The translations under genes and the position numbers were made by a program. 31,978 nt of DNA from a virus. The DNA is taken from the IMG/VR virus record IMGVR_UViG_3300009151_000237, positions 1 through 31,978 of that record; one strand, 5' to 3'. Positions 1,768-29,125 of the stretch are shown piece by piece. The first letter of the stretch is position 1, and every line of letters starts with the position of its first letter. The notes under the pieces are model-generated. The model searched no databases. It was not told the DNA's origin and was given only the letters and a program-made list of their open reading frames with translations.

Positions 1768-4437
1768 TCATTTATTTTCTAGTGCAGCGATACGTGCGGT
1801 CAGTGCTACGATTTCATTTTGTTGCGCTTTCAATGCTTCAACTACTACCGCAAGCACTGATCTATCATAGAAGCCCCAAGGTGGAGTGACGGTGCTTTCT
1901 GTACCATCCATATTTTTTGTTGTTGATGGTTGCGGTACAGGAGCAGCCTCTTGCCCAATAGCAGCATATACGTTTTGTGCATAAAAACCTAGGTGTCGTT
2001 CTGTTCCTAAGTTCGAACCTGGTTTACCGTAAAAGTAACCAGGCTCTAAAGCCATAATCTTCGAAATAGGATTAGAAATCCCGCCGTCTTTGATTTTCAG
2101 ATTTTCATCTGAAGTTGTAGAGATAACCCCTCCAGACATGACAACGGTGCCGGAACCATAAGCATACATTGTAATAATACCGGCACTGTCGATCTTCATC
2201 CTAGTTGCACCGTTGTTCGTCTGTGTGCCGGTGGAAAAACCTAAAGACATTGGAATATAGCTATATGCAGCAGCGCCACCAACAGCAGGCTGAAACCACG
2301 GCGTCGCCTCAACCTGGGCATAAATTTCTGCAGTCGGTGCGGCGCCGCCGCCTGTTGAACCTCCGCCAGATGACGTACCGGCTGATCCAGCAAAAACTAT
2401 TGATCCAACTTTATCTCCAGCATAACAAGACTTCAAATCATTGACCGAATCGCCTCTAGATTTGATCAATGCTATTACAGGAAAGTAAGAATTCGCTCCA
2501 TCACCCCAATGCCACAGGTAAGCTGAGGCACCATTTATAGTATTACTATTCAGTTGTAGCCCATATGTGTATGCGTAAGCTGGTGCGTCACCAATATAAA
2601 GTTTAGAAGCAACTGATGCATTTCCATATGATGTGAGTTGACTGCCTGAAACTGTGCCGGCTGTAGAAATGGAACCACCTATGATTGATCCTGCTACAGT
2701 GAGTGCTGGTACAGAAAGTGTGCTGCTCGTAGAAATTGCGCCCGATACATTAAGTGATCCTGCAACATCAAGAGTATATCCTGGAGTTGTAGTGCCGATA
2801 CCTACCTTACCATCACTCCTGATTACCATTCTGGTCGTAGGGCTTTGTGAATATCCACCGCGCACATCAGATCCAGTAACGAAATATAAAGATGAAGGTA
2901 CTATATAATTTGATACTGCACCGTCAACGTGACATTCAATTGATGCTGTTGGATTTGCGCCGTGACCACTGGTGCCGGCGTTTGGATCTGTACCGCTTGT
3001 TCCAGAAAAAACTATTGAACCTAATAAGTCTCCAGTTTGTACCGCTGAATTCGCTGAAAAATCGTTAGGGGTGATGCCCCTTGTTTTAATAAGTGCAATA
3101 TATGGAGCATAAGCAGTGTTGCCGTATTGCCATTGGTAAGTAGAAGACCCGTTTTGCGTATTACTATTAATTTGAATTGGTTGGTCATATGTATAAGAAG
3201 GAGCAGCACCAAGAATCATTTTAGCAACATTAAAACTTCCTGTAGTCAGTGCTCCAGATACATTCAGTGATCCTGCAACATCAAGAGTATATCCTGGAGT
3301 TGTAGTACCGATACCAACCTTACCATCACTCCTGATTACCATTCTGTTAGAACCAGCAGTCGAACCAGTGCTAAAATATAAGGCCGTTGGAATACTATTG
3401 GGGTTGCTTGTTGGTGTACCATCAATATAAGCACCCATCTCTGCCATTGGCTGAGCGCCGTTTGTGGATGTATTGCCGCTGGCACCAGCAAAAGCTATTG
3501 TGCCTAGGGTTTCATTTAAGCTAGAAGATACACTCAAATCTCCGGGGCTAGTGCCTCTAGTTCTAATGAGTGCAATATACGGCAAATTGGCACTTGGTCC
3601 GTAACTCCATTGATAAGTAGCCGCTTCATTTTCACCAGTACCAATAACTTGTATTGCATGTCTGAAGTATTTCGACGGAAGGATTGTTGTATTGCCGGTA
3701 AAGACTTTGGATACAGTTAGATTACCTGCTGTAAAGATACCGGTATTGGCAATCAATATATTGGTGTATGTGTTTCCGGTTACCGTCAAAGTAGCTGTAT
3801 TGACAGTAGTGTTTGCTTGCAGGATGTTGGTGAATGTTTTTCCTGTCACCATCAAAGTACCTGTATTGATGGTGCTGTTTGCTTGCAATGTATTGGTGTA
3901 TGTTGGTCCAGTTATTGTTGCTGCTGCAGTTGTAACAATTGTGTTTGCTTGTAGGATGTTGGTGTAAGCGGTATTGTAAATATTTAAACTTTGTAGCCCT
4001 GTGATTAATCCTGATACACTCAGTGTGCCACCCACACTTGTCGCACCGCTAACACTCAATGTGCCACCCATCAGTGTATTATTTGCAACAGATAAACTTG
4101 TGCCTGTGTTCTGAGCATACAGAGTTCCATTGGCATATGTAATCCCAGAAGAGTATAAGCTAATTTGAGTATTGGTCAAGTATGCTGCGCCACCGACAGT
4201 CAAATTGTTGTCGATTAATGCTGATGAACCTACACCTTGAACCTGCAACTGCCCATTAACTAATGCATTGTTGATTACATTTAGCCCAATATTTGTGCCG
4301 TTCAGTGTAAGTTTTCCGGAATCTTTAGTCCAATCGGATTTGCCAATTGAATTTATTTCTTTTGATCCCGCATTCGTTGAGACTACCCAGTCACCAAATG
4401 TGTTAGCATAACCTAAAATGTTTACTGTGTTAGCCAT
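1768..4437 (-). CDS. Tail fibre with C-terminal peptidase S74 intramolecular chaperone
   Basis: An 889-residue modular fibre. Residues 1-150 are beta-rich with short 'GGTLSVSG' repeats. Residues 158-245 hold four 22-residue 'YTN.LQAN' repeats. Residues 253-396, 407-566 and 613-757 are three copies of one larger module with the signature 'Y.W.YG....PYIALI.TRG'. The first two end in 'VIRSDGKVGIGTTTP' followed by 'YTLDVAGSLNVSG'. The C-terminus from residue 776 is an S74 domain: 'SDENLK' gives Ser776 and Lys781, the five-residue spacing expected of the self-cleaving Ser-Lys pair. Then come 'HLGFYAQNV' and a terminal coiled coil. In this family the chaperone drives trimer folding and then cuts itself off. 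Mature fibre would therefore end near residue 775. The start overlaps the upstream coiled-coil gene by 8 nt. Confidence 0.88.
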   Translation of the reverse strand: MANTVNILGYANTFGDWVVSTNAGSKEINSIGKSDWTKDSGKLTLNGTNIGLNVINNALVNGQLQVQGVGSSALIDNNLTVGGAAYLTNTQISLYSSGITYANGTLYAQNTGTSLSVANNTLMGGTLSVSGATSVGGTLSVSGLITGLQSLNIYNTAYTNILQANTIVTTAAATITGPTYTNTLQANSTINTGTLMVTGKTFTNILQANTTVNTATLTVTGNTYTNILIANTGIFTAGNLTVSKVFTGNTTILPSKYFRHAIQVIGTGENEAATYQWSYGPSANLPYIALIRTRGTSPGDLSVSSSLNETLGTIAFAGASGNTSTNGAQPMAEMGAYIDGTPTSNPNSIPTALYFSTGSTAGSNRMVIRSDGKVGIGTTTPGYTLDVAGSLNVSGALTTGSFNVAKMILGAAPSYTYDQPIQINSNTQNGSSTYQWQYGNTAYAPYIALIKTRGITPNDFSANSAVQTGDLLGSIVFSGTSGTDPNAGTSGHGANPTASIECHVDGAVSNYIVPSSLYFVTGSDVRGGYSQSPTTRMVIRSDGKVGIGTTTPGYTLDVAGSLNVSGAISTSSTLSVPALTVAGSIIGGSISTAGTVSGSQLTSYGNASVASKLYIGDAPAYAYTYGLQLNSNTINGASAYLWHWGDGANSYFPVIALIKSRGDSVNDLKSCYAGDKVGSIVFAGSAGTSSGGGSTGGGAAPTAEIYAQVEATPWFQPAVGGAAAYSYIPMSLGFSTGTQTNNGATRMKIDSAGIITMYAYGSGTVVMSGGVISTTSDENLKIKDGGISNPISKIMALEPGYFYGKPGSNLGTERHLGFYAQNVYAAIGQEAAPVPQPSTTKNMDGTESTVTPPWGFYDRSVLAVVVEALKAQQNEIVALTARIAALENK
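2167..3681 (-). repeat. Three tandem copies of a fibre receptor-type module
   Basis: The copies encode residues 253-396, 407-566 and 613-757 of the S74 fibre, roughly at 3681-3250, 3219-2740 and 2601-2167. The third copy has diverged most and lacks the 'VGIGTTTP' end. A fourth copy is in the fibre gene at 13377-15269. The most conserved DNA is an 85-nt stretch at 2749-2833 and 3262-3346, with only a few mismatches by eye. Confidence 0.85.
3745..3966 (-). repeat. 66-bp tandem repeat (four units) in S74 fibre
   Basis: The motif YTNILQAN or a close variant occurs at residues 158, 180, 202 and 224, exactly 22 residues (66 bp) apart, with 'T.T.T.TVTG' between. A fixed 22-residue period suggests a shaft of repeated beta turns. 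Confidence 0.9.
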
Positions 4438-4660
4438 TTGTGTTTTTACCTATTAATTGTTTCAGTAGAAATTTGATTTCAATAACATCATTTTTAATGT
4501 CGTCCATTTCCGATTTTACTTTATTTATTTCTTCTTTTTGAGTTTTTACCACTCGGAGTTTTGCATAATATTCATTTTTTTCTGCATTATCGGTTGGAGT
4601 AATTGCCATACTTTTAATGTCTCTCACAAAATTTGCGCCAGTAAGTTTAACAAGTGTCAT
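4430..4660 (-). CDS. Small coiled-coil virion-associated protein, 76 aa
   Basis: The first half holds 'ANFVRDIKSMAITPTDNAEKNEY'-like sequence, quoted here only in part. The second half (residues about 30-70) is a charged heptad-like helix with 'KEEINKVKSEMDDIKNDVIEI'-type spacing, predicted to form a coiled coil. Comparable small proteins next to fibre or DUF4815-type genes are familiar from aquatic T4-like phages, but their function is not known to me. It starts one base after the 731-residue gene and its end overlaps the S74 fibre start by 8 nt. Translation is therefore probably coupled, and a role in attaching or trimerising that fibre is plausible but unproven. Confidence 0.65.
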   Translation of the reverse strand: MTLVKLTGANFVRDIKSMAITPTDNAEKNEYYAKLRVVKTQKEEINKVKSEMDDIKNDVIEIKFLLKQLIGKNTNG

Positions 4661-4661
4661 G

Positions 4662-6857
4662 TTAAATTCCAGTGGCTGCCGGCAAAGCCAAAGCGCGAAT
4701 GTCGGTCAAGAACGGTACAGTAGTTGTATCTGAGCTTGCTAGTACTACCTTAATTGCAAATTGTATAAACGTATTAAAAGTTTGCCCTGCAGAATTTGTG
4801 TAGCTGATACTAGAAGTGTTTGCTTGGTTCGATGAAAACACACCAGGAGCACATTCATATTCAATTAGATTAGTTCTTGACGTTGAAAATATATTTGGGC
4901 TACCTACAGTTGCCATTAATTGCCAATTCGAAGTTTCAAAAACTGAAGCATCTTGTGAACTTAGAATTTTATAATAGACATATATTTGTGTGTTATTTGG
5001 TCTATATGCGGTGTAAAACACACGAAGGTCTGCAGAGTCGTTACCTGGAACCAATACAACCTTTTTCGTGAAATATTTTGCAATAGCATTTCCGCCCGTA
5101 GGAGAAGTTTCTCCAGATATAGTAACAACTGCATTTGCATTACCTGCTCGGGTCAGTGGGTCTAGAATTGTAATTGTTGGTGTTACCAAATAACCTGAAC
5201 CTGGATTTGTTGTGTACACTGAAGTCAATGCTCCAAGTGTGTTTGCTGTGAGCTTGAATATTGGTGTAGGTCCACCAAGATCATTTGTTGTATTCGAACC
5301 TGTTAATGCTGAAGTAATAACTACTGTTGCATTGGCTATATTGTAACCATAACCAGGATTAGCAATTGAAATAACATTGTTTGAAATTCCCATGTTATTG
5401 ATGCTATACCGGATTGTATATAACGAAACTCCGTCGTCTGAAATTATAGGAGATACATTAGGATCACTAGAACTTATTGTAGCATACAGAGCAAACGATT
5501 GGTCTGTAGAATTATACAACACTCTTTGCCCGAGCCCATCATTTAAATAGAATTGGTCCGGCGTCGGCATTCCTAATTTACCAGGAGTAATTGGTTTAAT
5601 TGGAGTTTGCACATTGCCATTGAATAATGTCGAACTATATGAATAGTTGATTGATGTATCTGTAGGGATAAAATCTGTAGTTGTTACATTTATGGCATCA
5701 ACAAGAACGCTTCTGGAATAATTACCTGAGAGTTGAGAGACACTATTTGCATTCATTTTAAGTAATATATCATCGCCGGCCGTTTTTCTATACGGCAAAT
5801 TTCTAGGCGTAGTAAACGGAATAACCGAGGTTCCAGTGTTAAACACACAACGATCAATAACAAACATTAAATCTTTAGATTGGTCTGCTGTCCACGTGAT
5901 ACCATTCTGAGATGCAAACAATGCACCAACATATGGTGCTGCACCAATTTTCGTCGGATTAGTAGGAGCTTCATCCTCTAACTTCGCTTTGGCTGATGAT
6001 GGAATTGCAAATTCATTTTGTTGCGCGTAATATAACGTATATTCTTTATCGTTGGACTTTATCAGAATTGCATAAAGGACTCCTGATTGTATATACACTG
6101 GTGCAGCGAATGTGAATGCAGTAAACGCTGTAGTGTCCAAATAATGCGGCGTCAATGAAGTTTTTACTTTATCTGGAGTCAAAGTGACTGTCGAATAGTC
6201 TAATGATAAGCCAGCAGGATAACCATTTATCGTAGGTATGATTGAAATCGTAATCGGCGTAGAACTTGCTGGCTTGGTCCGGAAAAACAATTTGACTGAA
6301 CTTAAAAATATTCCATTAGGATAAACATCTTTGGTCACCAAGAATGTTTGTGCAATCGGATCGAATGGGTTTGGTTCGTCAATTGTCTTCACTACTTCAG
6401 ATGAAATTTTACTAGTTTGTGTGAATGAGGATACAGAGGAATCTACAGCAGGTGAAAGTCCCAACAATTGTGATTGTACTGATAGCCCTGAAGCAGTGAA
6501 TGTAGCTTCAGCATATGTTGTAGCACTCGACTCACTTGTTGGTGTTATTCTATTGTCTATACGAAAAACTTTGTGCCCCGTCTGGAACATACCTGCCGGG
6601 ACATTAAAAATTGCAGAAAAACTACCAGACTCATCCGTCGAAGGAACAGGCAATGCAGTGCCAAGTTTGATTGCCTTTGCGACGTTGGTGAGTGTTCCGC
6701 GTATAGAATATTTGGAAGTTATATCACCACCCACAGTGGTATTTACTCCCATTGAGACGCCTACAGGCCTGTCCAAAGTTGCAATTTTGGTCGTCGCATT
6801 ATATGCAATAATATTTGCAGAATAATTGTATAAACTCGAAAGGGTTATTGTTGCCAT
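4662..6857 (-). CDS. Virion structural protein paired with DUF4815 protein, 731 aa
   Basis: A beta-rich structural protein. Residues about 78-120 read like a conserved segment of aquatic T4-like virion proteins ('FNVPAGMFQTGHKVFRIDNR', then 'TTYAEATFTASGL'). Residues 160-215 contain 'DPIAQTFLV' and 'NGIFLSSVKLFF', also hallmarks of that group. Residues about 490-590 hold two 'NPG.GY' beta-repeats ('NPGYGYN', 'NPGSGYL'). In related phages I recall such segments as belonging to, or lying beside, the large DUF4815 baseplate protein. The gene directly follows that gene here, so it likely forms part of the baseplate periphery or fibre mount. A CTAAATA box lies 27 nt upstream and a GGAAA ribosome-binding site before the ATG. 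No exact T4 counterpart can be named. Confidence 0.65.
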   Translation of the reverse strand: MATITLSSLYNYSANIIAYNATTKIATLDRPVGVSMGVNTTVGGDITSKYSIRGTLTNVAKAIKLGTALPVPSTDESGSFSAIFNVPAGMFQTGHKVFRIDNRITPTSESSATTYAEATFTASGLSVQSQLLGLSPAVDSSVSSFTQTSKISSEVVKTIDEPNPFDPIAQTFLVTKDVYPNGIFLSSVKLFFRTKPASSTPITISIIPTINGYPAGLSLDYSTVTLTPDKVKTSLTPHYLDTTAFTAFTFAAPVYIQSGVLYAILIKSNDKEYTLYYAQQNEFAIPSSAKAKLEDEAPTNPTKIGAAPYVGALFASQNGITWTADQSKDLMFVIDRCVFNTGTSVIPFTTPRNLPYRKTAGDDILLKMNANSVSQLSGNYSRSVLVDAINVTTTDFIPTDTSINYSYSSTLFNGNVQTPIKPITPGKLGMPTPDQFYLNDGLGQRVLYNSTDQSFALYATISSSDPNVSPIISDDGVSLYTIRYSINNMGISNNVISIANPGYGYNIANATVVITSALTGSNTTNDLGGPTPIFKLTANTLGALTSVYTTNPGSGYLVTPTITILDPLTRAGNANAVVTISGETSPTGGNAIAKYFTKKVVLVPGNDSADLRVFYTAYRPNNTQIYVYYKILSSQDASVFETSNWQLMATVGSPNIFSTSRTNLIEYECAPGVFSSNQANTSSISYTNSAGQTFNTFIQFAIKVVLASSDTTTVPFLTDIRALALPAATGI

Positions 6858-6883
6858 TTATTTTTCCAATAGATTCTTTTAAT

Positions 6884-6891
6884 TATTTAGC
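6884..6891 (-). promoter_or_regulatory. Candidate late promoter (GCTAAATA) before 731-aa gene
   Basis: The box lies in the 70-nt gap between the 1642-residue and 731-residue genes, 27 nt before the start codon. That is nearly the same distance as for the 120-aa gene (28 nt) and gene 48 (30 nt). It matches TATAAATA at six of eight positions. Confidence 0.45.
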
Positions 6892-6927
6892 AGCAGGATT
6901 TGATAGAAATTTTATAACGGGCACTCA

Positions 6928-9900
6928 CTAGAAATCGCCGATGCCGCCGATTTCTTGAATCCAAGGAGTTTCCACATAAATTGGATCCGAACCTGCACCT
7001 GAACCTGGTGGTGTAGTGTCTATAACTGGACCAACAATATCTGGTATAGTCGGCGGCACATATGTTGCTGAAAGCGGTACGGTGTATGCTAACTTAGATT
7101 GTATGCTTATCGATGAACCGACATAATAATTTGCAACATTTGACGAATTCAATGGATCTAATGCAATTTGTGTTGCGCCTACGAACCAAGAACCTCCACC
7201 TGGCATAGTAATCTGTGTACCCGCATTTATGTATGCTAGTGTTGGATTTACTGATGAGAATACTACGTTATTTGCCGAATCTTGGATTACTAACGCAAAG
7301 GCCGATGTTGTTGTGCCTGAACTTGTTGCGGCCCACGATAAAACTGCAGTTCCTGCCGGTAAAGTTGCTGTCGCCACCGTGGCACTTGAGCCAGCCGTAA
7401 ATGTTGCAATATTTGCACTGTTTGCAGATACATATGCACCACCTGAACAGGCTAAAATAATTGTGTAAGTTCCTGCTGCAAACGTCACTGGAATACTAGC
7501 TGCATATGCTATGCTGTTGTTTACATCTCCCCAAATGCCATACTCATTTAAAAACGATGAGTATGTGCTTACGGGTGGAATACTATAGAAATTAGCTATT
7601 GTGCCGGAATTGTATGTGTTTGAGTATCCGCCACCCACTGCGGAGATTATTCCACTGGAACTCATACTGACGATCGAATTTACAGTTGAGTTATTCGATA
7701 GTGTTGCTGATGCCGTTGAGGATAGATAATTGCCAATGCTGTCGAACAATCCATTCCGAATTTCAGTAGAAGCAACTGTTCCCGGTGCACCAACAATATT
7801 CAAAACATACAGTCTACAATTACTTGTATTAGGATAATTATAAATTGAGATTATACGAGCAATTGGAAAGAACTGGTTTGAAGAATAGAATCCAACAATA
7901 TCGTCTTTATTAAATGTACCCCCAGTAACGAGCGGAACAATCCCCACTAATTCTATCGTATTTAATGCTGTCATATATTTCGACACATCAATACCGTCGA
8001 AGAACGTTGATATTGGTGTATTCACCAATAACCCCGAAGCACTGACCAAGATTTGTTGAGGTCTGATGTATGGTAATATTGCAATGTTGGTTATAATTCC
8101 ATTACTCACTGCTAATGATGTGGAGTATGGATTATAAGATGTCGAAGTCGTATTCTGTATTTGACTTGAATATGTTTGTGTTGTGGTTGAAGTGAAGCCC
8201 GCTGACAACCCGAATCTGGAATTTGTATTGGTGACTGTTGTAAGTGAAGTCGAAGTTCCTGGTATCAAAGTCCAATTACTGGCATTTAATGAATTGACAC
8301 CAATACCTGCTTGATTTATTTGAACCCCTGGGTCTGAACTTATAATTGCCGGCGCTTGAGTATTATCTACCCAATTGTCCATGGGTGGATTCAACTGTGC
8401 AATACCTTGTTGTGATGTAACTGAGAATGGATTCACAGAAACTGTATTAGTTGCAAATTGTTGAAGTACTGTGGCCTCAGTTGTGTATGGCAGGGTGAAT
8501 ACGTTTGTTTGTGTAGCTCCAACGTTTCCAATTGCATAATCGTTCGTGCTGGCTAGTGTACCTAAAGATGCTAGTACTACTGGATTTTGTAATTGGAAAT
8601 TATTCACAGTCTGTAAAGCTGTCATTCTATTGTTTCGGATATCTATGTTTGCAGCATAATTCGCATTGTACGTATCGGCTGTAGAGAATGATGAAAAGTC
8701 ATCAACCAATATGCCATTTTTGAATCTGTTTATTCCATTGGTATCAGGCACCTGTAATGATTGTGCATTTTGTTCTAAAACACTTAATGAGGTATAATAC
8801 TCCAGATTGTTTACGCGAGATTCTAAGTTTGTAATGTCCATCTTAGCCCATCGCTTATGCTTGATCTTATTGAACGACATATTTGGTGTGATTGTCGGAG
8901 GACCTTCACCCGGAACATATGCTGTATATGGATCATGTAATAAATTTGCAATCAACATCGCATCAGTGAGTTCATTAGGTAGTGAAGGTGTTATTGAAGA
9001 TGCACCTTGGATAATTTTGAAGTTCTTATCTCTTGTTAATACCAACCTGTCTTGCCTAGCCAAATAGTAATAATAGCTATTCACAAAGTTTGTTAAGTTT
9101 CTAGGCAATAGTAAGCCAACGTCCGTATTGGTGGATGAATATTCCCAAATATAAGCAGTCTGCCCATTCTTTCGACAAGGCCTAAAATCTATTGTGTCTG
9201 CCAACGGATATACGTATCCGCTTTTGGCTGTGAATGTTGGAATTTGCTGGTATAATTCCGGCGCAGTTGAAGTGCCACCAAAAACAGACGTTGTGCCTGA
9301 ATATGATTGAATACTGAAATATCCATCACCAGTCGAGTCTTGTGTGTGGTCATAGTAATTAAATATTACTAGAATATGCCCAGCCGGCATAGGTGCACCA
9401 GGAACTAAAGAAATTGATGCATGGTCATAAAAGTTATCACGTTGGCCATTATCTAACGTGAAATTTCTAGTTATGTCTTTAAAACTAGCTAATGCACCTG
9501 TAGGTAAACCTGATGTGCTGTTTGTATCTATAATTTTAGAAATTAGTTTTACGTCATTAACATACAATGTATTTTTAGCACTAGGTGATAATGCTGTTTT
9601 GCTAATGAGTACTTGGCCTTTTGTTAAATCTTGATACACTCCAGTAGATGCAATTTGCACTAATGATCCACTTGCAGTTGTACTATCACCTGTAATTAGA
9701 TGTTTTGTCTTTAACACAAAAGTAGCTTCTTTGTCTGCATTATTAACAAACAAATTAGCAATAATTGTGACAACTTTATTATTATATGCGGCTGAAGTGA
9801 ACGTCGCAGTTCTTTTGTCACCTGAGATGCTTATTGTGTTTCCAGAAGTGTTGAAATCTAGAATACTACCTGTTGCATTTTCAATGACAATGAAAGCTTG

Positions 9901-11856
9901 CTGTGCTGCGGAACCAGAAAGTGTGCCGGTAGAAGTATCAAATTGTAACGGATATATGCTGCTGGATCCTTGAGCAGACAATGATATGACATTAGTATTG
10001 AATGTTTTGTTATGATACACTCTTTGTGTACTATAACTTGTATTTGTAACGTTTGCTACGAACGGATATCCAACTGACCAAAGAAGTTCTGGTGCTGAGG
10101 GATCTACTAAAATTGAATCTCCGGTAGAAAGCCCATTAACTTTACCTAATGTTGTGTTGATGTTCACATTTGCAGTTAACGCATACGATCCGGATCCAGT
10201 TGTCTTGACAATTGATTCAACATCATATGGTTCAAATATCAATTTAAATGTAGATGAGGATGTTGGTACTAAAGTGAATGCTGCATCGACCACAACATTT
10301 TTTGTTGGTGTTCCGGTGTAACTTATGATGTTTCTTATATCGGTTATGCCAGAAGTTGTCACAGCAACAGTTGTTTGATAATATGCATTGTTGGATGTAG
10401 AAAACACACCCGTAGTATCAGTAAATGTGAATGTGGTTAATGTATTTCCTGTGCCCGCAACAGTACCTGACAACGTATTAGTTGATATGTCTGAAACATA
10501 TGTATTATAGATGTAATTTTTAGTTGTTGCTCCTGAGCCTGAAACATAGTTCATACCACGGACATAGCCAGTGCCAACTAAAGTAGATGAATAACCAGTG
10601 CTGAATGCCACATTGATATTTGCTGCAGGCACAGAATGGAAATCAACCTGCGGCATTGTATTCACTTCGAATACGCCGTTTGCAGTATCGACTACGAAAT
10701 AATTTCCATGTTCTATGAATACTGGATTAGTTGAAACGTTAGCTGTACTGCGGGCCCTATCATTGGTCAAGACAATTTGTGATTGATTTTCAACCCTATA
10801 ACCATGCACATATGCAATACCTTTACCAATGCTGATATTGTATTTTGATGGATCTGATGTGTTTGCTGTAGGTATTAATTTGAAATCATCGACAATATAA
10901 TCACCATTTGTTTCATAATCGCGCTTGGCGAAATAATCATCGATTGTGGAATATACTGTTCCATCAACCTGTTTTACAATTTGCCCATCAATTATTCGCG
11001 CCAATTCAATAAAACCATCATCACTGCCTAATGACAATGGTAATGCGACCAGGGTTAATGTGATAACATAACGATCTGCGCCAGGTGCTTGATAATTGGA
11101 TGCACCGACTGCGGGATCTAAAAGTGAAATGTCATCTACATAATCAATATATGTTTCATTGATTTGTAAACCTATCCGCAGTGAAGGCACATTATCATAA
11201 ATGTCCAATACGACTGTCTGTGGATTTACTTGAACAAAATTGCCAATGGAATATTTCACTCCGGTGGTTTCTGAAATTGAATAACCATTAACAATATAGA
11301 ATACACCATCCGCGATGGATGCTACGGATGACAATCCAACAGAATTTAATGTTGTTGTCACACCACTCAGCGTTGTTTGTAATGAAGTTGCCACAGAAGC
11401 GAGGAACGTGGTTGGAGTAGTTTCTGTTGGAATTGTGTATACAACTGAACCGTCAACAAATTTTGGTCCAGTAAGGAAAACAACTACCAGGGTTGCTGGA
11501 TTTTGTGGGCTGATATATTCTGATGTGGCAATGACTTTTGCTAAGATCGTTCCAGTTACATCTGTAATATTTTGATCTGCAAAATTTGCCGCGGCAACCG
11601 TACCGCCATTAGGATCAATTTGATTAAGTTTGATGTAGTGACATTGTTGGTTAATCGTTAATTGCCCACCACTGACCGGAGTATTTTGAGAAAAAATACT
11701 ACTTGCAAAATTTGAAATCTGATTTTGCAATATGGTTTGAGATTGTGTAAGCTCACGGGCTTGTACCGCCACACCAGGTTTAAACAGAATGCGATGGAAG
11801 TTTTTTGATGGATCGAAGTCGTCAAGGTATTGACCACTATTAAAATTTATAGACAT
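6928..11856 (-). CDS. Large DUF4815-type baseplate/fibre structural protein, 1642 aa
   Basis: The N-terminus carries the DUF4815 signature of aquatic T4-like phages: 'KNFHRILFKPGVAVQAREL' at residues 18-36, then 'QTILQNQI'. A second conserved block at about residues 995-1080 ('LESRVNNLEYYTSLSVLE', then 'RFKNGILVDDFSSF') is also typical of these very long virion proteins. Near residues 1440-1560 is a beta-rich segment beginning 'LNEYGIWGD' that resembles a jelly-roll binding domain. The C-terminal 30 residues are Pro/Gly-rich. The gene follows wedge gene 8, where T4 has genes 9-12, so it may take over the role of those fibre-network proteins (inference). A GATAAATA box lies 78 nt upstream, with AAAGG before the ATG. 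The domain name is recalled from memory. Confidence 0.75.
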   Translation of the reverse strand: MSINFNSGQYLDDFDPSKNFHRILFKPGVAVQARELTQSQTILQNQISNFASSIFSQNTPVSGGQLTINQQCHYIKLNQIDPNGGTVAAANFADQNITDVTGTILAKVIATSEYISPQNPATLVVVFLTGPKFVDGSVVYTIPTETTPTTFLASVATSLQTTLSGVTTTLNSVGLSSVASIADGVFYIVNGYSISETTGVKYSIGNFVQVNPQTVVLDIYDNVPSLRIGLQINETYIDYVDDISLLDPAVGASNYQAPGADRYVITLTLVALPLSLGSDDGFIELARIIDGQIVKQVDGTVYSTIDDYFAKRDYETNGDYIVDDFKLIPTANTSDPSKYNISIGKGIAYVHGYRVENQSQIVLTNDRARSTANVSTNPVFIEHGNYFVVDTANGVFEVNTMPQVDFHSVPAANINVAFSTGYSSTLVGTGYVRGMNYVSGSGATTKNYIYNTYVSDISTNTLSGTVAGTGNTLTTFTFTDTTGVFSTSNNAYYQTTVAVTTSGITDIRNIISYTGTPTKNVVVDAAFTLVPTSSSTFKLIFEPYDVESIVKTTGSGSYALTANVNINTTLGKVNGLSTGDSILVDPSAPELLWSVGYPFVANVTNTSYSTQRVYHNKTFNTNVISLSAQGSSSIYPLQFDTSTGTLSGSAAQQAFIVIENATGSILDFNTSGNTISISGDKRTATFTSAAYNNKVVTIIANLFVNNADKEATFVLKTKHLITGDSTTASGSLVQIASTGVYQDLTKGQVLISKTALSPSAKNTLYVNDVKLISKIIDTNSTSGLPTGALASFKDITRNFTLDNGQRDNFYDHASISLVPGAPMPAGHILVIFNYYDHTQDSTGDGYFSIQSYSGTTSVFGGTSTAPELYQQIPTFTAKSGYVYPLADTIDFRPCRKNGQTAYIWEYSSTNTDVGLLLPRNLTNFVNSYYYYLARQDRLVLTRDKNFKIIQGASSITPSLPNELTDAMLIANLLHDPYTAYVPGEGPPTITPNMSFNKIKHKRWAKMDITNLESRVNNLEYYTSLSVLEQNAQSLQVPDTNGINRFKNGILVDDFSSFSTADTYNANYAANIDIRNNRMTALQTVNNFQLQNPVVLASLGTLASTNDYAIGNVGATQTNVFTLPYTTEATVLQQFATNTVSVNPFSVTSQQGIAQLNPPMDNWVDNTQAPAIISSDPGVQINQAGIGVNSLNASNWTLIPGTSTSLTTVTNTNSRFGLSAGFTSTTTQTYSSQIQNTTSTSYNPYSTSLAVSNGIITNIAILPYIRPQQILVSASGLLVNTPISTFFDGIDVSKYMTALNTIELVGIVPLVTGGTFNKDDIVGFYSSNQFFPIARIISIYNYPNTSNCRLYVLNIVGAPGTVASTEIRNGLFDSIGNYLSSTASATLSNNSTVNSIVSMSSSGIISAVGGGYSNTYNSGTIANFYSIPPVSTYSSFLNEYGIWGDVNNSIAYAASIPVTFAAGTYTIILACSGGAYVSANSANIATFTAGSSATVATATLPAGTAVLSWAATSSGTTTSAFALVIQDSANNVVFSSVNPTLAYINAGTQITMPGGGSWFVGATQIALDPLNSSNVANYYVGSSISIQSKLAYTVPLSATYVPPTIPDIVGPVIDTTPPGSGAGSDPIYVETPWIQEIGGIGDF

Positions 11857-11933
11857 TTAATTAACCTTTGTGAGTCTTTGTTTACCATCTGTTTTTTGGT
11901 ACTTCCAAGCATAAACAGTTTTATATTGTAGCT

Positions 11934-11941
11934 TATTTATC
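11934..11941 (-). promoter_or_regulatory. Candidate late promoter (GATAAATA) before DUF4815 gene
   Basis: GATAAATA lies in the 100-nt gap after gene 8, the longest gap in the window, and 78 nt before the next start. It differs from TATAAATA at one base. The leader would be about 65-70 nt, longer than for the other candidates, with no obvious stem-loop seen. Confidence 0.5.
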
Positions 11942-11956
11942 TTACAAATTTATAAC

Positions 11957-13366
11957 TTAGAATCCCAGAACAAACTTAAAATGTTCAATGCCGTCAGGAC
12001 TTCTCTGAACACCGATTCGATTTTCTATGTACATAATATATCCAGAATATGGCACCAATTTGCTTTCGGATGCGGTAAACAACGTTCTAAAAGTACCAGA
12101 TTGCATACCTTTAATTCCTTGGTTCTGAGTGTAGCTTCCGTAAGTATTTATTACTTGTAATATATTAGACGCACTGTCGAAGTTTAAAACTGTGCCGGAA
12201 AATATTTCAACTGGTGGTGAACTATTATCATACTGTTTAACAATCTCATCTGATAAGTAAGATCCTTGACCTGAGGACATCAATAATTGTAAAGTTGTAT
12301 TATAAAAATCTCCTGTTGCCATTGTCGTAGAACCGGATGTGCTACCGTATTCCATTGGTAATGCTAATAAACCAACTTGTCTAAACTTGACACCATCGAC
12401 AGGCAACAAACCATCTTCTGTACCGTTAAATTGTGCGGTATACATGAGATTATCGCAGCCTAATTCGGATATAGGATCCCAAGCGTGGCCACCAATTGGA
12501 GAGGCCGGAGCAATCGCAGTTGCACCTGAACCAGCTGCAGAAGAGATTGTAACGGTGGCGTTTGTATAATTTTTCCCCGCAAATCCAGGTCTTACAACAA
12601 CATCTGTAATTACACCATTACTCACTTGGCTGCTCGTTACATTGCCTGTTGCACCTAAGCCATCACCGGATACAGTGACAGTGATTGGTGCATTGATTGG
12701 ATCATAGCCTGAACCGCCATCTGTTATGTTGATGACTTCAATGTCACCGTAACCTGCGATATTACCTATAGGCTGCGGCACATTCACACCTACGAGAACT
12801 GGCATCCAACTAGAATCCATGAAACTTCTTTTTGATCCCGCATCAATAGTGTATATGAATTTCCATTTATACCCATCTGCATTTTGGTAGATGTTGTTTG
12901 TGCCGTATGACCCTGGCTGGAAATAAGGTTCTTCTGTTGAAGGAGCACCATTATTATTACAAAGGCACTTGAATACTTGGTCATATCTATTTTTTACATA
13001 GAAATTATGAATTAAGAATCCATTTGCATCTTTTTCCAACATATCAATGGTGTCGCTATATTCAGCGTAAATTCTATTGTTGGTCCAATCAATCCGTTGG
13101 AGTACTGGGCAAATATTACTGGTGTTAATCAACTTAGCGACAAACATGTTCTTGAATACTTTTTTCAAATATCGTTGATCTTGTCTTGGCTGCTCCGGAA
13201 TTTCTACGCCATCCACATAAGGCCATGGATCTGCTTGCCCTAAGAATGCATAAATTGTGAGTAATGGTTGCCCTTGTATAGTGGCAACCGGAGAGTAAAA
13301 CTCCATTTGCGCTTGGACAGCTTTTGCGTTGTATGTCAGTACGTTTAGATTAGGATTATTTGCCAT
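11957..13366 (-). CDS. 8: Baseplate wedge protein gp8
   Basis: A homologue of T4 gp8, the wedge protein that dimerises on gp7 and gp10. Matching features are 'YAFLGQADPWPYVDG' at about residues 38-52 (T4 has an FGRSEPW segment), 'DGYKWKFIYTID' near residue 165, and the C-terminal 'YIMYIENR' plus 'EHFKFVLGF', which mirror the T4 end. At 469 residues it is about 135 longer than T4 gp8. The extra length is explained by a glycine-rich beta-repeat insert at about residues 207-290 ('GGSGYDP', 'GDGLGATGNVT', 'GKNYTNATV'). The gene follows the fibre gene by ten bases. No Shine-Dalgarno sequence is seen before the ATG; AATAAATA sits four bases upstream instead. Confidence 0.85.
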   Translation of the reverse strand: MANNPNLNVLTYNAKAVQAQMEFYSPVATIQGQPLLTIYAFLGQADPWPYVDGVEIPEQPRQDQRYLKKVFKNMFVAKLINTSNICPVLQRIDWTNNRIYAEYSDTIDMLEKDANGFLIHNFYVKNRYDQVFKCLCNNNGAPSTEEPYFQPGSYGTNNIYQNADGYKWKFIYTIDAGSKRSFMDSSWMPVLVGVNVPQPIGNIAGYGDIEVINITDGGSGYDPINAPITVTVSGDGLGATGNVTSSQVSNGVITDVVVRPGFAGKNYTNATVTISSAAGSGATAIAPASPIGGHAWDPISELGCDNLMYTAQFNGTEDGLLPVDGVKFRQVGLLALPMEYGSTSGSTTMATGDFYNTTLQLLMSSGQGSYLSDEIVKQYDNSSPPVEIFSGTVLNFDSASNILQVINTYGSYTQNQGIKGMQSGTFRTLFTASESKLVPYSGYIMYIENRIGVQRSPDGIEHFKFVLGF

Positions 13367-13370
13367 GATT

Positions 13371-13378
13371 TATTTATT
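13371..13378 (-). promoter_or_regulatory. AATAAATA box four bases before gene 8 start
   Basis: AATAAATA is followed by AATC and then ATG. If it acts as a late promoter, transcription would begin at or inside the start codon. It overlaps the stop of the previous gene, and no Shine-Dalgarno sequence is present. A chance A/T-rich match is also possible. Confidence 0.25.
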
Positions 13379-15269
13379 AAGCGTGTTGAACTGACACAAA
13401 AGTATTTGCAAGGTCGCCCGCAATACAAAAATATCTTATGTATGCTGCGCTTGTGCCTGCCATCGAGAATGAGGTGCTATTAACAGTTGAATTTATTGCA
13501 AGGCCGCCGTGAGTGATTGTTCGCGCACCACCGGCTTCATTAACGACAATCAAGTCCACAAATTTACCTGGAATAAAATTAGCTAATGTGACTGTTAGCC
13601 CAGTCGAAGTATTACATCTGATTAGTGATGAATTATTGAACATGACGGTGATAGCCGTCTGCGCGGCTGAATATACAATCGGTATTCTAATCGTATTTGC
13701 AGCAACCAATGAGCCAGTGATAGTTACCGTATCAGATACATTAAGTGATCCAGCAACATCAAGTGTGTATGCTGGAGTTGTAGTGCCGATACCTACCTTA
13801 CCATCACTCCTGATTACCATTCTTGCATTGCCGCCGGTTGCGGTTGAAGATCCAGTAGAGAAGTATAATGCTGCCGGCACTTGACCAGTTAATGTTGCAA
13901 CATTATATGATACTGCACCATCAACTCGACATTCAATCGCCGCAGTTGGATTTGCACCATGACCACTAGAACCTGATCCTGGATTCCCACCACTTGCTCC
14001 AGCAAAAACTACTGAGCCTAATGTATCTCCAGTTTGTACTGCACCGATTAGGTCGTTAGGAACAGCACTTCTTGTTTTAATGAATGCCAGATATGGTGTA
14101 TATGAATTATTACCATATTGCCATTGATACGCCGCCGCTCCTTGTGGAAAACTACTATTAACTTGAATTGCTTGATCATATACCCATGCAGCGCCAATAT
14201 CCCCTACAAGCAATTTAAGTCCGCTTATATTATTCGCGGCATTTATTTTTCCAGCAACATCAAGTGTGTATGCTGGAGTTGTAGTACCGATACCGACTTT
14301 ATTGCTTGCAACAGTGATCGGGCTGTTGTTTGCGATATAATTGTTTTGTATGTACGTATTCGCTGTATTGGTATATGATTTGGCTGAAACCAATGTTGAT
14401 GCTATGTTACTCTGTAACCAATTATTCGCTGTATCGGTATAAAAATTGGTAGTAAATATGGCCGCAGCCAATCCGGATGCTATGTTGGCTTGTAACCAGT
14501 TATTCGCTGTATCGGTATATGATTTGGCTGAAACTAATGTTGATGCTATGTTACTCTGTAACCAGGTGTTAGAACTGTATGCATAAGCATTGGCTGTATT
14601 AGCTTGTGCAAACCCTGCTTGTGCGTATGTGTATGTGGCCTGTGAGAATGCATTTGCGACGGCCGAGGTGGTTTGTTTTGTTCCATCTGGAAAAGTTATT
14701 GCCGTTGCAGTATTCATCACCATCCCAGAAGATGTGAACTTAGCAACGATGTTTGATGATGTGCCACCACCAACAATTAACCGCAATTCGGTGTTTGATG
14801 TTGTTGTGCCTACAATTAAATTTCCACCAGGAGAAGTTCCGTTTAATCCCTGTACATATAAATATCCGTCTAATGGATTAATAGAAGTGCCGATGTTATT
14901 GAATTCAAGCCCCGGCTGGTAATACTTATTTGCTAGACCCATATCAATGAAATATGCAGAGTCTGTTCCCCCTGAAGCTGCATTAGCAGTAACTACTATA
15001 TCTGCAGAACCGCCATCATCCGTATTAACTAAGTTTGTTTGGATGTAGGAAGAACCATTACTTGCAAATTGGGCAACTGTGTGTGGTAAAACATTCGGAT
15101 TAACACCCACATTCAAAATTTCGTTTTTATAGAGCCCCTGTGCTATTGTGTGTGCGCTATATCTACCAGTTGTTAGTGTGGGAATGTCAACACCAACAAA
15201 TAAAGTGTTCGAAGTATTTGATGAAATTGATGAGGCCGCTGGTAATCCCGTGATTGTAATTTTAGACAT
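13377..15269 (-). CDS. Tail fibre protein inserted between wedge genes 7 and 8
   Basis: A 630-residue modular fibre. Residues 83-117 hold the phage-fibre motif 'DDGGSADIVVTAN' to 'YFIDMGLAN'. Residues 190-200 have 'FPDGTKQTT', another common fibre motif. Residues 233-312 contain three 'NNWLQ.NIAS' repeats separated by 'AKSYTDTAN'. Residues 324-340 and 491-507 each carry 'VGIGTTTPAYTLDVAG'. Residues 351-512 match the receptor-type module of the S74 fibre. The last 120 residues form a beta-rich tip ('VDLIVVNEAGGARTITHGG') with no S74 domain, so it must fold without that chaperone. In T4, genes 7 and 8 are adjacent, so this gene looks like an insertion. The receptor is unknown. Confidence 0.82.
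   Translation of the reverse strand: MSKITITGLPAASSISSNTSNTLFVGVDIPTLTTGRYSAHTIAQGLYKNEILNVGVNPNVLPHTVAQFASNGSSYIQTNLVNTDDGGSADIVVTANAASGGTDSAYFIDMGLANKYYQPGLEFNNIGTSINPLDGYLYVQGLNGTSPGGNLIVGTTTSNTELRLIVGGGTSSNIVAKFTSSGMVMNTATAITFPDGTKQTTSAVANAFSQATYTYAQAGFAQANTANAYAYSSNTWLQSNIASTLVSAKSYTDTANNWLQANIASGLAAAIFTTNFYTDTANNWLQSNIASTLVSAKSYTNTANTYIQNNYIANNSPITVASNKVGIGTTTPAYTLDVAGKINAANNISGLKLLVGDIGAAWVYDQAIQVNSSFPQGAAAYQWQYGNNSYTPYLAFIKTRSAVPNDLIGAVQTGDTLGSVVFAGASGGNPGSGSSGHGANPTAAIECRVDGAVSYNVATLTGQVPAALYFSTGSSTATGGNARMVIRSDGKVGIGTTTPAYTLDVAGSLNVSDTVTITGSLVAANTIRIPIVYSAAQTAITVMFNNSSLIRCNTSTGLTVTLANFIPGKFVDLIVVNEAGGARTITHGGLAINSTVNSTSFSMAGTSAAYIRYFCIAGDLANTFVSVQHA
13734..14219 (-). repeat. Fibre module shared with the S74 fibre gene
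   Basis: Residues 351-512 here align by eye with residues 407-566 of the 889-residue fibre: 'AYQWQYGN..YTPYLAFIKTR', 'QTGDTLGSVVFAGASG', 'SGHGANPTAAIEC.VDGAV', 'RMVIRSDGKVGIGTTTP'. At DNA level 13740-13824 is nearly the same as 2749-2833. A shorter extra piece of the same sequence is at 14251-14300. Confidence 0.88.
14340..14585 (-). repeat. Tandem coiled repeats in fibre shaft
   Basis: Near-identical DNA blocks encoding 'SNTWLQSNIASTLVSAKSYT' and its variants occur around 14360-14435, 14440-14510 and 14515-14575. The middle unit carries an alternate 'GLAAAIFTTNFYT' version. The repeat is in frame and probably builds a helical shaft. Confidence 0.8.
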
Positions 15270-22067: not shown

Positions 22068-23669
22068 TTAAAATATAATTGTTCCTGTAGATGTGAATTT
22101 ATAGGTTCGATATCCACCAGAAACTGTGATGGTTGGTGAACCTGTTACGAGAGTCGGTGTTGGATATGTATCTGCATAGCGAAGTATCACAACACCTGAG
22201 CCGCCATAACCTGCAGTCCAGTTTCCAGAATTGCCGCCACCGCCGCCGCCAGTGTTTGTGCTGCCCGAGGTGCCAGATCCGTAGCCAGACAAATAGGCTG
22301 CTTGCCCTGCACCGCCGCCGCCTTGCCCGCCAGCACCACCATATTGAATCCATGCACCACCACCGCCGCCACCGGCATAGTATGTTCCTGAACCAATGGG
22401 CCATTCTCTACCTGCGCCGCCGGCACCGCAATATGTATAATCTCCGTTTCCACAATTACCGCCGACGGCACTAGCACCACCGCCACCACCGCCACCACCG
22501 TAGCCTCCAGTCGAGCTACCTGCGCCGCCACCATAACCTTGACCAGGAGTACCTGCACCACCAGCGGTGCTTGAGTATCCGCCACCATAACCACTACCGC
22601 CTGCAATTCCAGATGAATAACCGCCACCACCAACTGAAGATATGGTCGAGAAACTAGAAGCTATACCCGCAAGCCCTGTAGTATTTTGCCCGCCGGCGCC
22701 ACCGGCTCCAATAGTAACAGCTAGAATGCTGGCTGATGGAACCACTGCAAAACCTGTGCGGAACCCGCCAGCGCCACCACCGCTGCCGCTGCTTGAATTA
22801 CCTCCACCGCCACCAGCAACAATTAGATATTCAACCGTAGGAGTTGGCAACACTGCCGCTGAAGGTATTGCAATACCCAGTGTGTTGGAAAGTAATTTTG
22901 GTGTTCCTATGAAATTTTTTATCAAGTAATCTGAAGACACTCCAGTACTGTTCAATTGACTTATCGTTTGGAAATCTTTTATCAATGCAAGTGAGTTCAC
23001 ATAAAAAGAAGTATCTGCAGTTCTTCTAGTGTTCAATAAAGAGTAACACCCTTGCACATGCCCAATAATAGTATTCATAGATGCTGCACTTACCGCCGGG
23101 TCTGCTATAGTCACTGCATCTGCACTCAAAGTAATGACATTAGCAGCAACTGCTGGAGCAATCGTTAGACTTGTAAAATTACCTAGAATTGGAGTATTAT
23201 TTTGTAATTTGTCTGTTTGGTTTAATATTGAAACTACTTGTCTACCGACTGCAGTAGCAATTTGATAATCTGGTGTATTTGCACTATCCTGGGATTGTGT
23301 AACATTCGATAAGTTGTTCGTGTGTATAATGAAAGACGCAATTTCTGCATTCAATGTATTTGCGGACATCATTAGTGTGTTTGCTACACTAAATTTAGTC
23401 GAATCGGATCCTAAGTATGTAATACTGATAGTGTTCGCAGAAGACATTATCATAGTTGATAACGTCGAAATGAAAGCCAAATTGGCCGACATTGGATTTT
23501 GATAATAGCTGGAAATACTTGAGGTGTTGGAACTGGCCAAATCATTTATTTGCCATTGAGCTAGATTGGTCTGCCCAGTATAGAACTGCTTTTGTGCATC
23601 GGTAAAATTCACAACCGAGCCAAAAACAGTCGAATCGAAATTGTAACCTAATCTAGAAAATACAGACAT
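22068..23669 (-). CDS. Glycine-rich tail fibre/adhesin protein, 533 aa
   Basis: The product has two parts. Residues 1-275 are largely helical, Ser/Asn/Ala-rich, without a recognised motif ('SRLGYNFDSTVFG' at the start). Residues 279-498 form a classical glycine-rich domain: 'VEYLIVAGGGGG', 'GGAGGFRTG', 'VTIGAGGAGGQ', several poly-Gly runs and a closing 'GGSGVVILRYA'. A short beta segment follows ('GGYRTYKFTSTGT'). Such domains occur at the ends of phage fibres and are thought to pack as polyglycine helices that present receptor-binding loops. Cys406 and Cys414 in a loop could form a pair. The gene lies between the spike gene and wedge 25, an unusual place that may reflect a central baseplate fibre. 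TTGGAG precedes the ATG. Confidence 0.75.
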   Translation of the reverse strand: MSVFSRLGYNFDSTVFGSVVNFTDAQKQFYTGQTNLAQWQINDLASSNTSSISSYYQNPMSANLAFISTLSTMIMSSANTISITYLGSDSTKFSVANTLMMSANTLNAEIASFIIHTNNLSNVTQSQDSANTPDYQIATAVGRQVVSILNQTDKLQNNTPILGNFTSLTIAPAVAANVITLSADAVTIADPAVSAASMNTIIGHVQGCYSLLNTRRTADTSFYVNSLALIKDFQTISQLNSTGVSSDYLIKNFIGTPKLLSNTLGIAIPSAAVLPTPTVEYLIVAGGGGGNSSSGSGGGAGGFRTGFAVVPSASILAVTIGAGGAGGQNTTGLAGIASSFSTISSVGGGGYSSGIAGGSGYGGGYSSTAGGAGTPGQGYGGGAGSSTGGYGGGGGGGGASAVGGNCGNGDYTYCGAGGAGREWPIGSGTYYAGGGGGGAWIQYGGAGGQGGGGAGQAAYLSGYGSGTSGSTNTGGGGGGNSGNWTAGYGGSGVVILRYADTYPTPTLVTGSPTITVSGGYRTYKFTSTGTIIF

Positions 23670-28654: not shown

Positions 28655-28683
28655 TGGGGTTCTCTAAAAATGATTATACATAG

Positions 28684-28691
28684 TATTTATA
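28684..28691 (-). promoter_or_regulatory. Late promoter (exact TATAAATA) for leftward baseplate operon
   Basis: A perfect T4-type late box on the minus strand, 30 nt before the gene 48 start, in the gap between two divergent genes. The expected start site near 28677 would leave a leader of about 20 nt. Its first base (28691) coincides with the A of the chosen gene 4 start codon on the other strand. T4-like phages read such boxes with the gp55/gp33 sigma-like pair. Confidence 0.75.
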
Positions 28692-29125
28692 TGGCATATT
28701 CTGGAAAGTTCGTCCCCAAAAATCCACACAAATATGTGGGTGACTATAAAAACATCATTTACCGGTCAAGCTGGGAATGTAGGGTCATGTCCTATCTGGA
28801 CAAAGAACCCACCATAATATCCTGGGCATCAGAAGAACTCATTATCCCTTATATATCCCCGGTTGACGGAAAGAGGCACAGATACTTCCCAGATTTCTTG
28901 GTGAAGTATCGTTCACCGGATAATAAGTTAAAAACTATGTTGATTGAAGTCAAGCCCAAGAAACAGGCCATGGAACCTGTAAAGAAGAAACGAATAACAC
29001 CGCAATATATTCGTGAGGTTGCAACTTGGGGTGTAAATCAAGCAAAGTGGGCAGCAGCAACTGAGTTGTGTTTAGATAGAGGCTGGGTGTTCAAAATACT
29101 AACTGAAGACGATTTAGGAATATAA
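28691..29125 (+). CDS. 4: Head completion nuclease-fold protein gp4
   Basis: A 144-residue homologue of T4 gp4 (also called gp50 in older maps), which finishes DNA-filled heads before tail joining. The sequence has a PD-(D/E)xK nuclease layout like TnsA: 'YRSSWECRV' with Glu29, 'YFPDFLVKY' with Asp68, and 'LIEVKPKKQ' with Glu86 and Lys88. The end 'WGVNQAKWAAA' and 'WVFKILTEDDLGI' is typical of the aquatic T4-like version. I chose the ATG at 28691 because the protein family begins 'YSGKFVPKNPHKY'. The in-frame ATG at 28670 would add seven residues and cross the opposite promoter. No clear Shine-Dalgarno is seen for either. It heads the rightward gene set. Confidence 0.83.
   Translation: MAYSGKFVPKNPHKYVGDYKNIIYRSSWECRVMSYLDKEPTIISWASEELIIPYISPVDGKRHRYFPDFLVKYRSPDNKLKTMLIEVKPKKQAMEPVKKKRITPQYIREVATWGVNQAKWAAATELCLDRGWVFKILTEDDLGI

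Follow-up and report, generated by a model that had tools for sequence, protein, structure and literature searches.

Two fibre genes of an uncultured T4-type phage carry four copies of one module, and the best explanation of our data as a whole, which we regard as probable, is that such modules have been exchanged, and the DNA of the loop that caps them homogenised, by recombination at the recurrent copies of that capping loop. For the module family at large, cassette exchange through the capping-loop DNA is well supported; in this phage it is likely.

The two fibre genes and their modules

The window, that is, the whole stretch of DNA analysed, is the 31,978-base virus record IMGVR_UViG_3300009151_000237, which holds a T4-type baseplate cluster in the order gp53, gp5, gp25, gp6, gp7-like gene, fibre F, gp8, DUF4815 protein, second structural protein and fibre S. 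The features of the two fibre genes are as follows.

1768..4437, minus strand: S gene, 889-aa fibre protein with a putative C-terminal S74 chaperone/protease domain (weak Pfam match)
3727..4437, minus strand: N-terminal part of S, residues 1-237, the conserved chassis in relatives
3319..3681, minus strand: interior of module S1, residues 253-373; saturated at synonymous sites when set against S2 and F1
3271..3318, minus strand: capping-loop seam after S1, VGIGTTTPGYTLDVAG, residues 374-389; DNA repeat
2806..3270, minus strand: interior of module S2, residues 390-544; loop at both sides
2758..2805, minus strand: capping-loop seam after S2, residues 545-560; DNA repeat
2113..2757, minus strand: module S3, residues 561-775, the last before S74; downstream loop motif lost
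1768..2112, minus strand: putative S74 domain, starting at SDENLK, residue 776 (motif definition from PMC10769870)
13377..15269, minus strand: F gene, 630-aa fibre protein between the gp7-like gene and gp8
14409..15269, minus strand: N-terminal part of F, residues 1-287; conserved in relatives
14250..14297, minus strand: capping-loop seam before F1, residues 325-340; fourth DNA copy
13797..14249, minus strand: interior of module F1, residues 341-491; loop at both sides, nearest to S2
13749..13796, minus strand: capping-loop seam after F1, residues 492-507; DNA repeat
13380..13736, minus strand: C-terminal part of F, residues 512-630; 39-51% aa in relatives

The SDENLK sequence at residue 776 of S matches SDxxxK, and the Pfam match to S74 was weak (18.8 bits against a cut-off of 22, E = 0.002). 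The four modules could be aligned with one another (S1, residues 255-388; S2, 409-568; S3, 616-765; F1, 355-511) with 27 invariant columns, and a profile built from them scored 206-253 bits on each, bearing out the claim of the first-pass annotation that the same module is present four times across two fibre genes. That annotation had also described nearly identical DNA at the module borders. Three copies of it are real, forming a repeat of 105 nt at 2729-2833, 3242-3346 and 13720-13824 (92% and 87% identical), but a shorter one at 14240-14301, the fourth, which lies upstream of F1, had been overlooked; because of this fourth copy, F1 and S2 are seen to be complete border-to-border cassettes lying between two direct repeats. 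The conserved DNA marks the borders of S1, S2 and F1, as had been stated, but not the downstream end of S3, where S74 starts and the loop motif has been lost.

Over the 30 border codons, 29-30 amino acids are identical among the copies. We counted synonymous mismatches in border and interior, compared them by Fisher's test, and computed the number expected from random codons, which for the border is 18-19. S1 and S2 differed at 4/29 border sites (18.9 expected) and 25/46 interior sites (28.6 expected; p = 3.7e-4), and S1 and F1 at 6/28 border sites (18.2 expected) and 30/48 interior sites (30.0 expected; p = 5.2e-4), whereas S2 and F1 differed at 4/28 border sites and at 22/69 interior sites, where 40.5 were expected at random (p = 0.06). 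The earlier statement that the module interiors differ thus holds for S1, with its synonymous saturation, but less so for S2 and F1, whose interiors are clearly related at the DNA level; likewise, the proposed comparison of border with interior gave non-uniform divergence for S1 against S2 and F1, but nearly uniform divergence for S2 against F1. The low interior mismatch of S2 and F1 indicates that they share a fairly recent whole-module ancestor, and interior sites pair S2 with F1 (86 shared sites versus 36 and 31 for the other groupings). Judged from sequence, S2 and F1 look like a whole-module copy, although near-uniform divergence is also expected from copying any larger gene segment, and S1 has mainly the border in common with them. 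The loops at both sides of F1 are identical at 43/45 nt, while the outer bases differ at 30/48 (p = 9e-10), and both F loops share four variants that set them apart from the S loops. A mosaic test inside F3 against S2 gave no significance (p = 0.07).

Fold of the module and identity of the loop

No Pfam family covers the module. A profile that combined the window modules with 43 phage relatives matched crystal structures in the PDB, namely five fibre chains of the Bdellovibrio 'mosaic adhesive trimer' (MAT) type (E = 2e-31 to 7e-11), with the alignment running directly through the loop motif '..MRI...GnVGIGT..P...L.V.G'. The MAT paper (PMC10769870) names this motif 'capping loops', which close the trimeric beta-helix, states a consensus for it and reports MATs both with and without S74. 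The consensus is printed as V-G-G/N-pi-X-X-P-X-X-X-L, and VGIGTTTPGYTL, present in four copies, fits it on the assumption that printing dropped an I after V-G. The loop is also the most conserved protein part of the module family.

An AF2 monomer model of F residues 318-535 was of medium confidence, with a mean pLDDT of 77 and a pTM of 0.68; its upstream third was poor, and pLDDT was about 96 in the downstream loop (residues 171-190). In Foldseek, the F1 model resembled 8onf, 8oml and 8ol4 (E = 6e-8 to 7e-7), as well as more than 100 predicted phage proteins (E <= 1e-3), many of them named fibres or intramolecular-chaperone proteins. The T5 L-shaped fibre (4uw7), likewise a trimeric beta-helix that is followed by an S74-type domain, gave a weaker fold match (E = 8e-3). 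By profile and model, the modules match S74/MAT-type fibre beta-helix modules, and the border encodes the MAT capping loop. S3, judged by its position, would form the exposed end once S74 has been cleaved, and the modules may make contact with the host.

Relatives sharing the fibre chassis

The chassis set comprised 80 related loci found with S; the window and most of these relatives are metagenome assemblies. The N-terminal 237 residues of S are common to the relatives at up to 60% (80 loci), the N-terminal 287 and C-terminal ~120 residues of F recur among them, and gene order is kept. None of the 80 carries the S1, S2, S3 or F1 modules, and one (L012) has the loop motif with different interiors. 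Since the fibre ends are conserved in relatives that lack these modules, the modules occupy a variable zone between conserved ends. This arrangement in 80 module-less relatives, and the position of F1 between its 43/45-nt repeats with unlike sequence outside, speak in part for the cassette swapping that had been proposed from the window.

A protein search with the module found only remote relatives, mostly about 30-44% over the module, and exact-peptide DNA patterns for the loop and module interior had no match outside this genome. Module swapping or reordering in the phage's own lineage was not seen, no relative with the same modules having been found. DNA common to F and S was present in 13/56 relatives; what they share is a repeat of the shaft, in most cases of the ANGAF kind, rather than the module, and thus lends no support to exchange of this module. 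Two pairs of loci were set aside as population evidence. L068 and L071 are identical over 14,026 nt and differ by about 2.5 kb with a 417-aa ORF, but the repeats that flank this segment (about 180 nt, 94%) are other than capping loops, and the difference may stem from assembly; L045 and L046 differ by several indels, one of them frame-breaking, probably owing to assembly.

In the window, further in-gene tandem repeats of 66-96 nt (3729-3964, 14341-14598 and 959-1150) lie in the shafts of both fibres and of the next fibre gene; they are separate from the modules.

Uniformity of the loop DNA within genomes

The loop motif is common, with at least 120 stretches in IMG/VR and at least 115 in prokaryote genomes. 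Among 88 non-redundant viral contigs, loops of the same contig agree in their synonymous codons more than codon usage would predict, the effect being confined to about nine codons (~27 nt), from two before the V through the S/T before the P. With codon usage computed outside the borders, and pairs within genomes set against pairs between genomes (n = 84 phage contigs), the observed/expected synonymous mismatch of this nine-codon core was 0.627 within genomes (per-genome mean 0.70, n = 84), that of the remaining border codons within genomes was 0.973, and that of the core between genomes was 0.95-1.03, whatever the class of codon-usage distance. Loop pairs were equally alike whether adjacent, distant or in different genes (0.752, 0.754 and 0.758), which fits genome-wide homogenisation without a distance signal. 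Repeated 5-mers outside the borders were also alike (0.72), but with true repeats among them they make a poor control, and the between-genome test was used in their place.

A weaker pattern was present in bacteria and archaea, where 79 loci gave a mismatch of 0.48 versus 0.68 expected for the core and of 0.64 versus 0.68 for the rest. Capping-loop genes (L224-L338) were found in Patescibacteria, Elusimicrobia, Bdellovibrionota, Bacteroidota, other bacterial lineages and archaeal bins.

Block ends and module exchange in the wider family

Fibre ORFs with at least two loops were compared across contigs, excluding pairs alike over >60%; the resulting set of block ends includes a few near-duplicates (L135/L194). 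Block ends of unlike phage fibres lie at capping loops at about twice the chance frequency: 37/95 were no more than 45 nt from a loop in one sequence, against a shuffled mean of 17.4 and a maximum of 28 in 1000 shuffles, and the majority (58/95) were away from loops. At 25 of the 95 the end was at a loop in both sequences, with unlike protein beyond in 24/25, but as aligned sequences share loops this count is inflated, and the count from one sequence is the more trustworthy.

Movement of whole modules could be read from individual pairs. L200 and L218, read as protein, have one module in common, from loop to loop, in foreign surroundings, and L145 and L197 likewise share a single loop-to-loop module in different surroundings; L215 has, compared with L201, one whole extra module between loops; and two neighbouring modules of one gene in L189 are found in two separate genes in L219. 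The rearranged module order that the first-pass annotation had suggested looking for was therefore found in the wider family, as sharing, insertion and reordering at loops, but not in this phage.

Proposed mechanism and alternatives

We propose that S1, S2, S3 and F1 are S74/MAT-kind trimeric-fibre beta-helix modules strung along two T4-type phage fibres, and that the repeated border encodes a capping loop, each of which would close the beta-helix. Because a loop is required at every joint, loop DNA recurs in frame many times per genome. This recurrent DNA may offer short homology exactly where modules can be joined harmlessly, and recombination between loops, by short conversion-like events within a genome or between co-infecting phages, would move whole modules and at the same time keep the loop DNA uniform. 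In this phage, an S2/F1-type cassette would have been copied between both fibre genes, and the loops, including that of S1, homogenised. Since the S and F loops form direct repeats that enclose baseplate genes over a distance of about 10 kb, those genes would be lost in a simple crossover, and exchange between S and F would require either a short conversion-like exchange or an exchange between two genomes. Both the agent, homologous recombination, and the direction of copying are what we infer from these patterns. Homologous exchange at loops would jointly explain the joints at loops, the uniform loop DNA within genomes and the interiors of differing age, and we favour regarding it as a by-product of a repeated structural loop rather than as an evolved swapping system. 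In our judgement, the chances are about even that the S74/MAT capping loop generally has a dual nature, as protein cap and as ~27-nt homogenised seam, through which phages, and perhaps adhesin-bearing bacteria, assemble fibres from a shared pool of modules.

The uniformity of the loop codons bears on two other explanations. If the modules were old paralogues that had never exchanged DNA, purifying selection could have fixed the amino acids of the loop, which is indeed the most conserved protein part of the family, while the interiors diverged; but selection on protein accounts for none of the synonymous data, neither the 4/29, 6/28 and 4/28 mismatches in the window loops against 18-19 from random codons nor the core value of 0.627 within genomes against about 1.0 between them, and we find this account highly improbable. 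It is very unlikely, too, that a DNA- or RNA-level signal, codon optimisation or codon context holds the loop codons fixed. Some context effect does exist, a same-tripeptide control giving 0.51 versus 0.63 for the same residue, but codons -2 and -1 fell well under the tripeptide control (0.42 versus 0.64 and 0.19 versus 0.43), the loop codons are not the commoner ones of the genome (0.631 versus 0.613 at random), and the pattern is genome-specific, being absent between genomes of like codon usage (0.95-1.02).

The block ends can also be accounted for by illegitimate recombination occurring anywhere, with selection retaining joints at domain edges and the loop DNA playing no role. Domain mosaicism is widespread in phage fibres (PMC10684548), and such a structural filter is an explanation to which we give some weight while considering it unlikely, for it leaves unexplained why synonymous uniformity within genomes is limited to the loop core. 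A recent origin of the modules by tandem duplication within genes, with interiors that then diverged fast, would suit the many tandem repeats in the S and F genes and in 62/80 relatives; it is nevertheless quite unlikely, as the copies sit in two genes 10 kb apart, loop pairs from different genes are as alike as neighbouring ones, and the interior of S1 is saturated at synonymous sites. Finally, repeats of 45-105 nt are a known hazard in metagenome assembly and short repeats might have been misjoined, but the frames of both genes are intact, the conserved C-terminal part of F follows its module and the gene order matches that of many relatives, so that an artefact is scarcely credible. Recombination at the capping loops remains the explanation that we prefer.

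Comparison with known systems

The MAT fibres of Bdellovibrio bacteriovorus (PMC10769870; PDB 8ol4, 8oml, 8ond and 8ojn) share the beta-helix module and capping-loop motif with the window proteins, and resemble them in having S74 and non-S74 members and one end conserved while the other varies. However, MATs are cellular surface proteins, those proper having a signal peptide and a conserved ~130-aa N-terminal domain, whereas the window proteins are phage fibres with N-terminal parts common to phage relatives, and we do not class S and F as MAT proteins. In its available text, the MAT account deals with structure and tip diversity, and not with loop DNA as an exchange seam.

The closest precedent for the exchange itself is that of the T-even phages, for which work from 1998 is reported to describe adhesin specificity swapped by recombination between conserved motifs. 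As in the window modules, variable segments there lie between conserved motifs and exchange takes place between the motifs, and block joints at a conserved motif are what we found in the wider family (37/95, shuffled 17.4). The T-even motifs are glycine-rich (polyglycine helices in gp38; PMC6851490), whereas here they are capping loops, belonging to beta-helix modules of 100-150 aa that recur several times within a gene. Domain mosaicism of phage receptor-binding proteins (PMC10684548) likewise involves, as here, fragments common to otherwise unlike fibre proteins; that study used protein profiles and does not contain the words breakpoint and S74, whereas here the seam is located with a DNA-level mark. 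A limited literature search found no description of the capping loop as an exchange seam. The principle of exchange is thus known from T-even adhesins, while this module and seam look new.

Although fibre mosaicism is known, the positions of the joints in long, repeat-rich fibres of uncultured phages are not. Here the joint is a structurally defined loop with a signature at synonymous sites, measurable in any genome; the seam predicts where modules start and end, which will aid annotation of many fibre genes that lack a name, and opens module exchange to laboratory tests.

Other features of the baseplate cluster

The DUF4815 protein and the next structural protein (window 4662-11856) are encoded by two genes here and in some relatives; other relatives have a single ORF of about 2,100-2,330 aa in their place. 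The baseplate cluster also encodes a 533-aa protein with a Gly_rich_2 domain (22068-23669, minus strand; Pfam E = 3.6e-17), and a TnsA-like endonuclease domain (28670-29125, plus strand; Pfam E = 1.6e-25) adjoins the cluster.
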